Assembly (NCBI GenBank): GCA_031279525.1
Contig: JAITIH010000070.1
Span: 1 to 5,502 of the forward strand
DNA from: Deltaproteobacteria bacterium
Lineage (GTDB): Bacteria > Desulfobacterota > Desulfarculia > Adiutricales > Adiutricaceae
DNA length: 5,502 nucleotides
Reading direction: 5' to 3'
The notes under the pieces are model-generated. The model ran no database searches. It was not told where the DNA came from and was given only the letters and a program-made list of their open reading frames with translations. How positions within the stretch are numbered: the first letter of the stretch is position 1; every line of letters starts with the position of its first letter. Of this stretch, positions 545 through 5,502 are shown in pieces. The position numbers were made by a program, and so were the translations under genes.

Positions 545-3064
545 TTACCCGGCCCCGACTTTGGCCAAAGCCTTCGGGGACTTTTCGGGGATCAGGCCAG
601 TGGCCAGGGTGGCGAAAAGGCAAATCGCGTAGAAGAGCCACATGGTCGCCCAGCCGGAAAGCCCCAATAAGGTCCCGCCGGTGAAGACGGCCATCGCCGC
701 GACCAGGCCAAAGGCGGACTGCCAGGCCAAGGCGAAGAGCATCCAGCGGGTGGAGTTGGCTTGCAGACGCACCATGATGGAAGCCGGAAGGCAAGGAGGG
801 TACAGAGCCATGAAAATCATGAGGGCTAAGGCGTGGAGCGGGGTGAAGCCGCTGCGGTTGTCCTTTAGATCCTGGGCCGGGGAAGTGGCGGCGCCATCTG
901 GGTCCTCCGAAAGGCCATAGATCGCCCCTAAGGTGGCCGCGCTGTTTTCCTTGGCCGCGAAGGCCGAAAGCAGGGCGATGTTGACCCGCCAGTCGAATCC
1001 GGCCCATTTCGTGATTGGCTCCAAGGCCAGGCCGACCATGCCCAAAACGCTGGACTGAAAAGTCTCCTCCTTCATCTCGCGCCTAAGCTTTTTGCGCTCG
1101 CTGGCCACTTTCCGAAGGCCCTTTTTCAGCTCGGAAAACTCTGGCCCCGAGCCCTTTAAAAGGCCGTAAAGGCGCGGGGAGCTTATGGCGAATCTGGCCT
1201 CGACGGCGTCGGCCTTGGCCTGCTCGGTCACGCCTATTTTGGCCGTCTTAATGGCCTCGTCCAAAAGAATTAGCCCGCCGACGTCGTCGGTGGAGACTTG
1301 GCCGTCCAAAGGAGTCCCTTTTAAGCGGCCTAATAAGGCGGCCTTGGCCGCGTCGGCCTTGGCCTCGAAGCCGGCGAACCGTTCCGCGTTTAGCTTAGGG
1401 AAGCTAATGAGGCCGAAAACCACGACCGAGACGACCAAGACCACGGTGACGATCTTTTTCAAAAAGAGCCAAACCCGCTCAACCGTGCGGATCAAGACGG
1501 TCCTGACCCCGGGGGCGTGATAGGGTGGCAGCTCCAAAATGAAAGGCGCGCTGACCTTGCCCTTTAAAACGGTGAGGGTCATGACCCTAGCCACGGGGAG
1601 AGCCATGAGCAGGGTCACCGTGGCGATGAAAAACATGGCCAAAGAGCTCTGGAAAGAGGTGGTGGAGAAAAAGGCCCCAATTAAAATGAGATACAAAGGC
1701 ACCTTGGCCAGGCAGTTCATCATGGGAGCGATGAGAATGGTGGCCAGGCGGGCCTTTTCGTCCGGAATGGCCCTGGTGGCCATGATGGCCGGGATGGCGC
1801 AGCCGCCCACGTAAACCCCGCCTAAAATCAAAGGCAAAGTCGACTGGCCATGGAGGCCAAAGCGCCGAAAGAGCCGGTCCAACAGGAAGGCCATCCTCGG
1901 CATGTAGCCGCTGTCCTCCAAGATGGCGATGAGGGCGAAAAGGAGAATGAAGATGGGCAGGTAATTTAAGACGGCGGCCAAGCTCTTTAAAACCCAGACC
2001 CCCAAGGAATAGGCCACGGGGTCGTCTAAAAAGCCCTGGCTGGGTAGTAAGCTCGTCAGGAAGTCTTGGCCCTGGCCCCACAAGGGCCAGATCTTGGCGG
2101 CCAAGGCCCCGCCGTAGACGATGGAGATCTGATAGAGGCTTAACAAGACGGCCACTAAAATTATGGGCCCAAAGACCCGGTGGCAGACGGCTTTGTCGAT
2201 TTTGTCGGACAAGGTGGCCTTGCCGGGCTCCGAGTCCGTCTGAAACCGCCCGGTCAGCTCCTTGGCCTTCTTGTGCCGGGCGAAGGCCAGATGCCGGGCC
2301 GGGGAGAGGCCCATGGCCCGCTCGAACTCAGCCCCTAGCCGGGCGGCCTCCGCCAAAATCCCCTCGACCTTTTCCGGGGCCTTGTTGGCCAGGCGTTTTT
2401 GGGCCTCGACGTCGCCCTCCAAAAGCTTTAAGGCCAGCCATCTGGGCGAGCAGCCAAGGCCGTCTAGGCTCTTTAACGAGTCGGTTAAAGCCTCCGCCGC
2501 GGACTCCAAAGGCCCGTAGTCCAGCCGAAAGGGCTCTGGCTTCCCGCAGTGGCCGCAAGAGGCGCAATCGGACGGCGGCCCGGCCAGGGCCGCCTTCAGC
2601 TCCCCTAAGCCTTGGCCGCTTTTGGCGGACATGGCAAAGGCCCTAACCCCTAAACTCTCGCCTAGGCCGGCCACGTCGATCCTGACGCCCCGCCTTTTGG
2701 CCACGTCCATCATGTTCAAGGCCAGGATCTGGGGCCGCTCGGTTTCCAATAGCTGGATGGTTAAGTACAGGTTCCTTTTTAAGTTGGCCGCGTCGACGAC
2801 GTTGACTAAAACGTCCGGTTTTTTTTCGACGATGTGCTCCCGGGCCAAAGTCTCTTCCAGCGAGTAGGACGTTAGGCTGTAAGTCCCGGGCAGGTCGACG
2901 ACCATGACGGTCGTCTCCCCCATCTTAAAGCGCCCGGTTTTTTGCTCCACCGTCACCCCGGGGTAATTGGCCACGTGCTGCCGGGCCCCGGTCAAGGCGT
3001 TAAAGACCGTGGACTTGCCGCTATTGGGTTGGCCGGCCAAGGCCACAGAGACTTTAGAGCCCAT
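545..3064 (-). CDS. feoB: Ferrous iron transport protein B, variant-gate subtype
   Basis: This is the inner-membrane Fe(II) uptake permease with an N-terminal GTPase, 839 residues against roughly 700-770 for common forms. G-domain motifs are G1 GQPNSGKS (11-18), G2 T38, G3 DLPG (57-60), G4 NMMD (117-120) and G5 SAK (146-148). A C-x2-C-x2-C cluster (C167, C170, C173) follows, then the helical GDI-like region (about 180-275). Membrane segments begin near 297. Gate 1 reads LGGVYVGGCAIPAIMATR (414-431) and gate 2 includes FAAKENSAATLGAIYG (702-717). C422, C451 and C758 sit where FeoB proteins carry their conserved pore cysteines. Compared with the common GFGCNVPA gate, this one is four residues longer and has Ala instead of Asn; I recall this subtype from sulfate and metal reducers. 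Residues 555-671 form a charged insert between membrane segments, probably outside the cytoplasm. The ATG overlaps the end of feoA by 11 nt, which suggests translational coupling. The frame is intact and looks functional. Confidence 0.97.
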   Translation of the reverse strand: MGSKVSVALAGQPNSGKSTVFNALTGARQHVANYPGVTVEQKTGRFKMGETTVMVVDLPGTYSLTSYSLEETLAREHIVEKKPDVLVNVVDAANLKRNLYLTIQLLETERPQILALNMMDVAKRRGVRIDVAGLGESLGVRAFAMSAKSGQGLGELKAALAGPPSDCASCGHCGKPEPFRLDYGPLESAAEALTDSLKSLDGLGCSPRWLALKLLEGDVEAQKRLANKAPEKVEGILAEAARLGAEFERAMGLSPARHLAFARHKKAKELTGRFQTDSEPGKATLSDKIDKAVCHRVFGPIILVAVLLSLYQISIVYGGALAAKIWPLWGQGQDFLTSLLPSQGFLDDPVAYSLGVWVLKSLAAVLNYLPIFILLFALIAILEDSGYMPRMAFLLDRLFRRFGLHGQSTLPLILGGVYVGGCAIPAIMATRAIPDEKARLATILIAPMMNCLAKVPLYLILIGAFFSTTSFQSSLAMFFIATVTLLMALPVARVMTLTVLKGKVSAPFILELPPYHAPGVRTVLIRTVERVWLFLKKIVTVVLVVSVVVFGLISFPKLNAERFAGFEAKADAAKAALLGRLKGTPLDGQVSTDDVGGLILLDEAIKTAKIGVTEQAKADAVEARFAISSPRLYGLLKGSGPEFSELKKGLRKVASERKKLRREMKEETFQSSVLGMVGLALEPITKWAGFDWRVNIALLSAFAAKENSAATLGAIYGLSEDPDGAATSPAQDLKDNRSGFTPLHALALMIFMALYPPCLPASIMVRLQANSTRWMLFALAWQSAFGLVAAMAVFTGGTLLGLSGWATMWLFYAICLFATLATGLIPEKSPKALAKVGAG

Positions 3065-3284
3065 CTCGCGCGACCTCGACGAACTCGGCCTCGGCGTGGC
3101 GGATGGCCAGGAACACCCCTTCCAGCTGAATTTCCAAAGGGTCGACCAAGGGGGCGTTGCGGATAATTTTTAAGGCCGCCCCCGGACAGAAGCCCAAGTC
3201 CATGAGGCGCCTTTCCAAGGCCCCGTCCGCCGATAGCCCCACCATGCGGCAAGTCTCGCCAGGCTTTATTTCGTTCAAATTCAT
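3054..3284 (-). CDS. feoA: Ferrous iron transport protein A
   Basis: This 76-residue protein is a full-length FeoA, a small cytosolic SH3-like beta-barrel that supports FeoB-mediated Fe(II) uptake. Family hallmarks in order are the start MNLNEIKPGE, R25-R-L-x-D-L-G-F32, P34-G, the D48-P-L-E-I strand, G56, a hydrophobic L59-A-I-R62, then H63-A-E-A and a closing V-E-V (69-71). I start it at the ATG at 3282-3284 because this matches the usual FeoA N-terminus. The frame stays open upstream to a TTG at 3366-3368, but those 28 extra residues are Arg/Phe/Trp-rich, unlike FeoA, and overlap a terminator-shaped hairpin. The Shine-Dalgarno sequence is poor. Its stop lies inside the first codons of feoB (11-nt overlap), so the two are almost certainly one operon. 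Confidence 0.95.
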   Translation of the reverse strand: MNLNEIKPGETCRMVGLSADGALERRLMDLGFCPGAALKIIRNAPLVDPLEIQLEGVFLAIRHAEAEFVEVARDGL

Positions 3285-3339
3285 TAAACACCGCGCTCGC
3301 GATCGCCAAAAGGGCGACCAAAAAAAAGCTAAAACCCTC

Positions 3340-3368
3340 AAAAATTGGCCCCCTAAGGGCTTGGCCAA
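3340..3368 (-). terminator. Terminator-shaped hairpin in the feoA leader (possible attenuator)
   Basis: On the minus strand TTGGCC (3368-3363) pairs with GGCCAA (3350-3345), and CCC (3359-3357) with GGG (3353-3351) around a TTA loop, leaving a three-base AAG bulge on one side. Five U residues follow immediately (3344-3340). The structure ends 55 nt before the feoA ATG. It could end readthrough from upstream or act as a conditional stop in the feoAB leader. No competing antiterminator or leader peptide was identified, so regulation is speculative. Confidence 0.4.
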
Positions 3369-3831
3369 CCTTAACGACTAAACTTTAGGGCATAAAGCCA
3401 GAAAGGGCTTGGCCGTCTCGGCGGCTAACCTTTTGGCTTTAGGCCTTCGACGAAAAACGGCCGGGCCCGCGCCCAAAACCTCTTAAGAAGGCGCCAAAAA
3501 AGCCTAATAAACCCGACGACGCCCTCGCCGAAAAGAGGCCACGCAGGACCATAACGGCTTATAGGGGCTTTAAAAGCGCCTAAAAACCCTTAAAGCCTAA
3601 GGCGGCTAAGGCGATAAAAGGCTAAGGCCTCAGGGCCTTAACGAGCCCAATCAAGGCGTTTCAAGAGGCCAAACCCCTGGCCAAGAGAGGGCTAAAACGG
3701 CCACTTAATGAGACTAAGGCTTTCTAGCCTTTTAAGCCCGCCTAGCGAAGCTGATTAAGTTATTAAATAAACTTTATCTAATTAAATTAAGAATAATATA
3801 TAATTAAATATCTTTTTAAATAAGCATATTT

Positions 3832-3850: not shown

Positions 3851-4057
3851 TTTAAATTTATACATCTAAAAGAGGCTGGCAGCCAACGCAAGAATACGTC
3901 TCTAGTTCCCGCCCCAAAAACGATAGGGGCCGTCGTCGGCCTGGGGCGAGGCCCTTTCTTAGGCGAGAGCTCGCCGGCCCGCCGGCCAAGTCCTAATGCC
4001 TTGATATTAAGACTGATTCTTATTATATACAAAAAATTCGTTGAGGCAAGCAAATAT

Positions 4058-4166
4058 GATGGTCTGGCAAAAACACCTGTTTTCGAAAATCATTAGAAAA
4101 TTATTTTAATAATTTCAAGAGGTTAATTTTCTAGCTTTCATTTTCCGAACTTTTTGCGAAGCCATC
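4058..4166 (+). mobile_element. MITE-like element, copy 1
   Basis: This 109-bp non-coding unit has imperfect terminal inverted repeats: GATGGTCTGGCAAAAA at the left and, as its reverse complement, GATGGCTTCGCAAAAA at the right (13 of 16 match). It is about 85 percent identical by eye to the unit at 4486-4595, in the same orientation. It is flanked by AAATAT (4052-4057) and GAATAT (4167-4172), a 5-of-6 direct repeat consistent with a decayed target-site duplication. No transposase is present, so it would have to be mobilised in trans. The family is not identified. Confidence 0.75.
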
Positions 4167-4485
4167 GAATATTATAGTCTGGGGATTTTTGATTGGCGAG
4201 GCGCGGCGGCTAGAGGCCCGGGCGGGCCATGGAAAAGCGATTTTTTGAATTCCCAAAAAAAGGGGCTCGTAGGTGGTCAGGATAAGAAAAAAAATTACTT
4301 TATAAACAATAATATAGACAACAATCTAGATAATAATCTTAAATCATTTAAATAATTATGTTAATTTACTATATAACAATTCAATTGAATGGATTTTATG
4401 GGACCCTCCTTAGCCACTTTGAGACGCCTAAAAATCCGTGAACGCTTACCTCCTTAGGGCCAAAAAATGCCGCCAACTTAATTTT
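4167..4485. other. Non-coding spacer between the two MITE-like copies
   Basis: No gene is supported here. 4195-4235 is a short GC-rich patch. 4290-4395 is AT-rich and loosely repetitive, with related AACAATAATATAG, ACAACAATCTAG and ATAATAATCT words, and ends with a perfect 12-bp palindrome ATTCAATTGAAT (4379-4390). CCTCCTTAG occurs twice between 4400 and 4460. Nothing in it resembles a transposase or a passenger gene, which argues against a composite transposon. Confidence 0.55.
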
Positions 4486-4595
4486 GATGGTCTCGCAAAA
4501 ACCCCTGTTTTCGGGAATCGGGGGAAAAATCTTTTAATAATTTCAGGAGGTTATTTTTCTGATCTTTCATTTTCCGGATTTTTTGCGACGCCATC
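4486..4595 (+). mobile_element. MITE-like element, copy 2
   Basis: This is the better preserved copy, 110 bp. The left terminus GATGGTCTCGCAAAAA and the reverse complement of the right terminus, GATGGCGTCGCAAAAA, match at 14 of 16 positions. It is bounded by a perfect 6-bp direct repeat AATTTT (4480-4485 and 4596-4601), the signature of a target-site duplication. Its internal part shares TTTTAATAATTTCA and CTTTCATTTTCCG with copy 1; the interior has no open frame of note. It lies 137 bp beyond the stop of the beta-helix gene, between the two minus-strand transcription units. Confidence 0.8.
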
Positions 4596-4732
4596 AATTT
4601 TCACTAGGATTTTTGCCTTTTTAGCGTTTATTCGCGGGTCTTTTTCGCCGCGTTTTTAACGCCGCTTAAAGGGGCAGGGGCAATAGAAGGCCCACAAATT
4701 TCAATTCGCGGGGAGAGAGGGGCTTTTTCGGC

Positions 4733-5502
4733 TTAGGGCTCCATGCCGAAGTCGCTTAGGGTTGGAACCTTAATTTTCGGGAACTTAAACGGAGCGGCGC
4801 TTTCGACGATTTTGATCCCCCGTTGTCTAAGCCCACTTTCTCTTAAAGGAAACCTTACGTCGCGCGCGTTAATCGTAATGTTCACTTTCGAATCCGAAGA
4901 GCGTTGGATTTCCCCAGACACCGCGACGTTTCGCCAGCGAGCGTTTTTAACGTTAAGATCCCCTGGGAAAAGCAGCCCATCGATATTAACGTTCTCAAAA
5001 TCAAGGCCGGTGACGATCATTTTTTTGCCGTCTAAATTGCCGATTATCAGGTTTTTAGCGTTTACGTCGCGAACGTAAAAGTTTCCGCTTACCATATTCA
5101 TAAAAGCGGGACCGCCCCTGTTGCCTTCAAGGTAAACTAAGCCCGTGTCTTTTTTCGCCAACAATACGGTGCGGCCAAATATTAACTCATTAGGATCGTA
5201 GGGAGCGAATGCGTTGTTAATCATATAAAGGGCATCCTGGTTTTCATCTCCCACCTGTCCCGAGGTGAGGGAATCCTTAACCACGGTGGCTACCCTTGCC
5301 CCTTGAAGCATGGAGGAACCTATAAATTTTGAGTTTTCCACGTAACAGTGTTTAGGGAAGCCTAATATACCTGAATGATCGGCAAATTCGCTATTTTTAA
5401 TATGCACAGTGCTATCCTTGCCATACACTATCGCAAATATTTCTCCTTTAAATTTACAATTTTCTATTAAAAGATGAGTTTCACTTAATAAAAACGGTAT
5501 AT
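4733..5502 (-). CDS. Partial repetitive beta-helix-like protein (5' end outside the window)
   Basis: The C-terminal 255 residues of a larger protein whose function I do not recognise. The frame is open to the right edge, so the in-frame GTG at 5426-5428 is an internal Val codon, not a start. Numbering from the first full codon in the window, a motif of the form I/V-x-N-C/S-K/E-F recurs at N14, N36 and N56, with looser copies at D76 and N95. The spacing of 19-22 residues is one coil of a right-handed beta-helix, as in pectate-lyase-like and surface-adhesin folds. A second solenoid-like stretch, rich in alternating hydrophobic and Asn/Asp residues, covers about residues 135-190 (for example LDFENVNIDG and LNVKNARWRNV). 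A Lys/Pro-rich tail ends in DFGMEP. No signal peptide, catalytic motif or transmembrane segment can be judged from this fragment. Its codons look AT-richer than those of feoB, which may indicate a different history. It is separated from feoA by about 1.45 kb and is probably an independent unit. An extracellular or surface role is inference. Confidence 0.75.
   Translation of the reverse strand, partial: IPFLLSETHLLIENCKFKGEIFAIVYGKDSTVHIKNSEFADHSGILGFPKHCYVENSKFIGSSMLQGARVATVVKDSLTSGQVGDENQDALYMINNAFAPYDPNELIFGRTVLLAKKDTGLVYLEGNRGGPAFMNMVSGNFYVRDVNAKNLIIGNLDGKKMIVTGLDFENVNIDGLLFPGDLNVKNARWRNVAVSGEIQRSSDSKVNITINARDVRFPLRESGLRQRGIKIVESAAPFKFPKIKVPTLSDFGMEP

Follow-up and report, generated by a model that had tools for sequence, protein, structure and literature searches.

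Miniature inverted-repeat elements (MITEs) of the IS1182 family, linked to the insertion sequence (IS) ISMac2, have been described in Methanosarcina acetivorans, where they occur in 14 and 7 copies (PMC3852290, Table 4). These archaeal elements measure 160/169 bp, carry inverted repeats (IRs) of 26/25 bp and show a 4-bp duplication or none, and in the published alignments their borders alone resemble those of their partners (PMC3852290). ISPse1 of Paracoccus, another member of the IS1182 family, is 1653 bp long with a 16-bp IR and a 4-bp duplication (PMC3281130), and IS1272 of staphylococci, of the same family, is reported to insert into hairpin targets and to make no duplication (PMC4923244). 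A MITE of Cardinium derives from an IS982-family element, of which intact parental copies are present (PMC9769881).

The MITE family described here was detected through two copies in the window, that is, the whole stretch of 5,502 nucleotides that was analysed, which constitutes the entire contig C126 of the host draft genome. Like the ISMac2-linked MITEs, its members are short and gene-less and have terminal inverted repeats (TIRs) in common with an IS1182-like partner; they differ from them in their bacterial host, their length of 109/110 bp, IRs of about 16 bp and 6-bp A-W4-T duplications (PMC3852290). The partner resembles ISPse1 in IS type and in the 16-bp IR, but its estimated length is about 1.88 kb and its MITEs have 6-bp duplications (PMC3281130); with IS1272 it shares the family, yet here AT-rich hexamers are duplicated (PMC4923244). 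As with the Cardinium MITE, the spread is lineage-specific and took place in a repeat-rich, host-associated bacterium, whereas the IS family is not IS982 and the parental IS of Cardinium is intact (PMC9769881). Among the members compared, and in the parts of these papers that were available, published IS1182 duplications are 4 bp or none, against 6 bp in these MITEs. IS1182-derived MITEs are already published (PMC3852290), and the present family adds an unusual 6-bp target. No report of this family was found among the literature matches listed for IS1182/ISNCY and for MITEs in termite-gut and symbiont genomes, a search in which subscription journals were mostly uncovered.

Results

Two MITE copies upstream of feoA

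Copy 1 lies at 4058..4166 on the plus strand (109 bp; 89% identity to the family consensus) and copy 2 at 4486..4595, also on the plus strand (110 bp; 94%). The first-pass annotation had reported them as repeats of about 85% identity in the same orientation, and this was confirmed; the copies are 428 bp apart. At their 5' start they read GATGGTCT(G/C)GCAAAAA and at their 3' end TTTTTGCGA(A/C)GCCATC. The TIRs of copy 1 are located at 4058..4073 (left, plus) and 4151..4166 (right, minus). Those of copy 2 are at 4486..4501 (left, plus), after which comes CCCC, and at 4580..4595 (right, minus), followed by ATCC, or GTCC in the consensus; in the IS partner, the counterpart of the family left end lies 3' of the transposase gene (tnp-3' end) and that of the right end 5' of it (tnp-5' end). 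Copy 2 is bounded by an exact duplication of AATTTT (4480..4485 and 4596..4601, plus), and the flanks of copy 1, AAATAT at 4052..4057 and GAATAT at 4167..4172 (plus), match at 5 of 6 bases; both pairs of flanks had been noted earlier. Neither copy contains a transposase gene, and the sole reading frame of at least 50 aa over them is one of 73 aa across copy 2.

Both MITEs are situated between feoA/feoB and an ORF at 4733-5500 without family match, and all three ORFs are on the minus strand (feoA, 3054-3368, PF04023; feoB, 545-3064, TIGR00437). Next to feoB, a small ORF (135-476, minus) matches a NikL-type nickel/cobalt ECF subunit with a score below the cut-off (54.5 vs 100 bits). A 39-bp sequence reading ...GTGAACGCTTACC at 4412-4450 of the window recurs with 97% identity at positions 1828-1866 of L318 (G000:C45); in the window it stands 35 bp before copy 2, and in C45 it directly abuts a left-truncated MITE. 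This sequence is reminiscent of an IS66-type end.

Copies in the host genome

The host genome (G000) is a 1.75-Mb draft of 355 contigs that is about 64% complete. A search of it with the consensus, which the first-pass annotation had proposed, revealed further dispersed copies: the 110-nt query had 34 matches (E<=0.001), and after two short ones (C294:808-845 and C39:1-21) were set aside, 32 copies, whole or broken, were examined, 24 of them full-length. The full-length copies have a mean identity of 92.6% to the consensus (range 81.7-96.3) and a mean pairwise identity of 88.1%; with an average divergence of about 12% between copies, many of the insertions are likely old. A search of the host genome for the 16-mer at the right terminus, tolerating at most 2 mismatches, gave 43 matches, and the reversed-pattern control gave 0. 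Given these 43 matches against 0 and the 34 genome matches, the window repeats are not due to chance. Most of the copies (28/32) do not overlap any ORF of at least 100 aa. The exact right-end pattern had 0 matches in collections of genome contigs and viral contigs, a result of little weight because near records may be absent from them.

Additional truncated right ends, not counted among the 32 copies examined, are present in contigs C7 and C97. The end of C7 was considered as an IS end and rejected, as it is a MITE right end joined to a separate repeat that also occurs in C229 and in a related genome, G015. This multi-copy sequence of about 60 bp (TTTGATGGGGGGTGACTGGAAACGGGG...) is found at G000:C7:1-61, at G000:C229:4670-4730 and in at least 9 places in G015. 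The region G000:C225:21555-21779 (L003, L011) contains a tandem pair of MITEs; AAAATT precedes the first, separates the two and follows the second. The decayed fragment of an IS1182-type transposase (C225:21136-21444) lies about 110 bp from this pair.

Target duplications

An exact 6-bp target duplication borders 12 of the 24 full-length copies in the host genome, and 5 or 6 of the 6 flank bases agree in 17 of the 24. When left flanks were re-paired against right flanks (2000 shuffles), this level of agreement was reached by a mean of 2.3 copies and a maximum of 9. These 17 copies support the earlier proposal of a non-autonomous, MITE-like family with 6-bp flanking repeats. Two of the seven copies below 5/6 attain 6/6 if the boundary is moved by 1-2 bases.

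Over seven genomes, 54 of 91 elements have exact 6-bp duplications with the consensus A-W-W-W-W-T; position 1 is A in 44 of these 54, and T occupies position 6 equally often. By genome, exact 6-mers were present in 12/24 elements of G000, 15/21 of G015, 6/13 of G016, 19/27 of G017, 1/3 of G018, 0/1 of G019 and 1/2 of G020, and shuffled pairings gave at most 8 in any of the seven. In the relatives, a script joined terminal matches into elements, working on selected loci and not on whole genomes. In the set of 91, identical copies are collapsed and both contig-end elements without flanks and two mislabelled own-genome copies are excluded; some pairs in dense arrays (L104, L299), possibly mispaired, are retained.

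Empty sites

A relative that runs uninterrupted across the junction was found for 5 of 92 joined-flank queries, searched against the selected loci. The two best of the five are the C228 copy in the host's own genome, where the filled site reads ATCTTT-MITE-ATCTTT and an empty paralogue has one ATCTTT (86.7% identity over 173 bp), and an empty site in G017 (93.1% over 173 bp). Among the five, a 54-nt match lying inside a tandem repeat is weak, and a further 85% match in G017 (L143) to joined flanks was lost under a stricter filter. The first-pass annotation had looked to empty sites for verification of the element boundaries; exact boundaries were obtained for the C228 copy and in relatives. 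For copies 1 and 2 of the window no empty site could be shown, as the feo loci of the nearest two named relatives align only from feoA onwards and not upstream.

Distribution in the genus

The MITE consensus, searched against 37 genomes of the bacterial family, matched four including that of the host, all from the genus of the window. With up to 2 mismatches, the left-end pattern had matches in 6 of 7 genus genomes, G015 with 70 and G017 with 90 being examples; G019 has one match, which equals its reversed-pattern control count, the control giving 0 or 1 per strand per genus genome. The right-end pattern was matched in all seven, 202 times in G017 and 2 times in G019, with the qualification that left ends, too, fit this pattern once 2 mismatches are allowed, as in most of the G015 matches. 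The element hence belongs to a genus-wide group and not to the host genome alone. Judged by identical match positions and scores, G015 and G018 correspond to G038 and G037, the genomes of the metagenome assemblies Cd354_bin82 and Nc350_bin15, respectively, which, judging from their naming style, presumably come from termite guts.

The interiors of the MITEs of about 110 bp in G017, G018 and G016 resemble that of G000, since only 0 to 3 of 300 dinucleotide shuffles reach the observed score; the interior, being similar to that of MITEs in three sister genomes, may predate them. The main MITE of G015 is about 140 bp long with an unrelated interior, and interior homology between G000 and G020 or between G000 and G015 was unsupported (113/300 and 165/300 shuffles reach the score). 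MITEs were also observed within the noncoding tail of IS1182-like copies, namely L144 (G017:C5) at 3525-3631, L331 (G017:C58) at 729-837 and L290 (G018:C69) at 1434-1520. The three apparently sit at or next to one homologous hexamer of the IS tail (about 562-567), and the two flanks of the L290 MITE differ from each other.

A likely IS1182-like partner

In the relatives, the terminal repeats adjoin transposase (tnp) fragments. PF13751 (DDE_Tnp_1_6) was matched above its gathering score of 25.1 bits in L133 (45.7), L147 (46.1; from the host's own genome) and L148 (31.7). Partial matches to NF033551 (IS1182) were obtained for four fragments, L133 (39.0), L147 (38.8), L148 (45.2) and L322 (48.3), i.e., 38.8 to 48.3 bits against a cut-off of 270 that applies to whole proteins. 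No Pfam match was obtained for the two pieces, 229 aa and 73 aa long, of the copy in G018 (L322); PF05598 (DUF772) was not detected in the latter, N-terminal piece and occurs in two unlinked ORFs, L175 and L170.

To compare the ends, 13 tnp-3' and 14 tnp-5' ends were listed by hand. Three of the former (L140, L141 and L142) were assigned by DNA similarity to the IS tail; for only four of the latter (L176, L180, L322 and L328) did a protein or profile search detect a tnp fragment on the stretch that carries the end, the others being placed by DNA similarity. At positions 17-22 the tnp-3' ends are closer to the MITE left end in 13/13 cases and the tnp-5' ends closer to the right end in 12/14, the exceptions being one tie (L331) and one miss (L323). 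Across all 22 positions, 8 of the 13 tnp-3' ends favour the left end and 5 tie, and 14/14 tnp-5' ends favour the right end. The left MITE end is of the type that follows the transposase gene in the IS, and the right end is of the type that precedes this gene.

Contigs with the tnp-5' end continue into a start region, where visual inspection of L303 showed TTGACA-17-TATAAT. There (L303, G017:C83, 1540-1942), the IS left end contains the direct repeat TTTTCGTCTACCAAAACTA, and a consensus-like promoter precedes the transposase start; as speculation, the repeat might be a putative binding site. Two contigs of two species (L322 and L148) suggest an IS length of about 1.88 kb. In C218 of the host genome, a frameshifted, decayed tnp is followed by ...GGGGGGTTTACTAGGGCGTC, which matches the MITE left end at 14/22 positions and is diverged.

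The first-pass annotation had stated that the family could not be assigned to a known IS and had pointed to an IS with the same termini as confirmation. The assignment can now be made, to an IS1182-like element: end-specific termini occur on such copies within the genus, and those found are decayed or cut by contig ends. An intact partner would be marked by the termini GATGCCTTCGCAAAAAGTCC / GATGGCTTCGCGAAAACCCC; no intact transposase gene linked to MITE-type ends was among the matches in the seven genomes. Around three long ORFs of IS1182 type (563, 475 and 479 aa), the stretches scanned, some of which reach contig ends, contained no matching terminus pair, and the 563-aa ORF scored 96.7 bits, below the IS1182 cut-off of 270. 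On the same ground the long-ORF matches to PF13751 (L160/L175, L170 and L172) were rejected as the intact partner. A matching 6-bp duplication was absent at the four two-ended IS copies whose flanks were read (L133, L154, L176 and L180). The partner is named "IS1182-like" because the published duplications compared are 4 bp or none, as opposed to the 6 bp of the MITEs.

Discussion

We consider it highly probable that the window copies belong to a MITE family with 16-bp imperfect TIRs and 6-bp AT-rich duplications, and that its likely mover, acting in trans, is the DDE transposase of an IS1182-like element with the same end-specific termini. The identity of the mover is where another account deserves most thought: a different IS that is lost or unassembled, for instance of ISNCY type, could drive the MITE, the IS1182-like elements having merely convergent or borrowed ends. 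The 6-bp duplication does depart from the published IS1182 values, the tnp fragment of L133 scores about the same with NF033593 (ISNCY_1; 39.7 bits) as with IS1182 (39.0 bits), and a host assembly of 355 contigs with a completeness of only about 64% could hide a driver. We nevertheless judge this account unlikely, for the other fragments prefer IS1182 over ISNCY (38.8 vs 29.2 bits in L147, 45.2 vs 14.9 in L148, 48.3 vs none in L322), and the end-specificity of positions 17-22 in 13/13 and 12/14 IS ends argues against another driver.

Two further readings leave transposition, in whole or in part, out of the picture. If the repeats were selected intergenic RNA or DNA hairpins (a regulator, a terminator or a REP-like sequence) and not transposon derivatives, the plus-strand folding of both window copies, which beats that of shuffled sequences (z -3.2 and -4.3), and the position of 28/32 copies clear of ORFs of at least 100 aa would fit. 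The excess in folding, however, vanishes in 7/7 consensus sequences once the 22-nt ends are removed, so that the hairpin potential stems from the inverted ends; covariation is slight (two-sided change in 3/25 predicted pairs), and no Rfam family reached its gathering score within the window. A functional hairpin would predict neither target duplications nor empty sites, which together largely refute the structured RNA reading; it was rejected and is, in our estimate, very improbable. That the window pair descends from a single insertion duplicated locally in tandem, as the common orientation and the spacing of 428 bp might suggest, is scarcely credible. Homology between the two extends on the left only over hexamers that differ (AAATAT and AATTTT) and on the right stops at the element end, and the copies are unequally close to the consensus (89% vs 94%). 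In addition, copy 2 has a one-base insertion in common with copies in C285, C225 and C137 that is absent from copy 1. Two independent insertions, as the first-pass annotation had held, are thus borne out by the differing flanks and by homology that ends with the elements.

For the MITE family and its IS1182-like partner, movement in trans is an inference, no intact transposase with these ends having been found. The transposase would pair both ends, either cut the MITE out or copy it, and join it to target DNA, AT-rich and for the most part intergenic, that has been cut with a 6-bp stagger; gap repair at the stagger would then make the 6-bp duplication. The MITE itself may have originated when IS termini came to flank unrelated filler. 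A broader history can be offered tentatively, as one possibility that we hold to be rather doubtful: a branch of IS1182-like elements duplicating 6 bp, with A-W4-T targets, may have supported a single MITE lineage of about 110 bp across sister species of this gut-type Desulfobacterota genus, with uneven re-amplification (up to about 200 ends per genome), decay of the parental IS and MITEs inside the tail of their own mover.

On a practical level, these repeats disturb assemblies, as several contigs stop about 115 bases inside an IS end or within a MITE. A MITE family that was otherwise unassigned now has a named likely partner, and a 6-bp target is added to the IS1182 family. The series of seven genomes in one genus, in which the number of matching ends varies between 0-2 and about 200, lets MITE amplification be set against IS decay.
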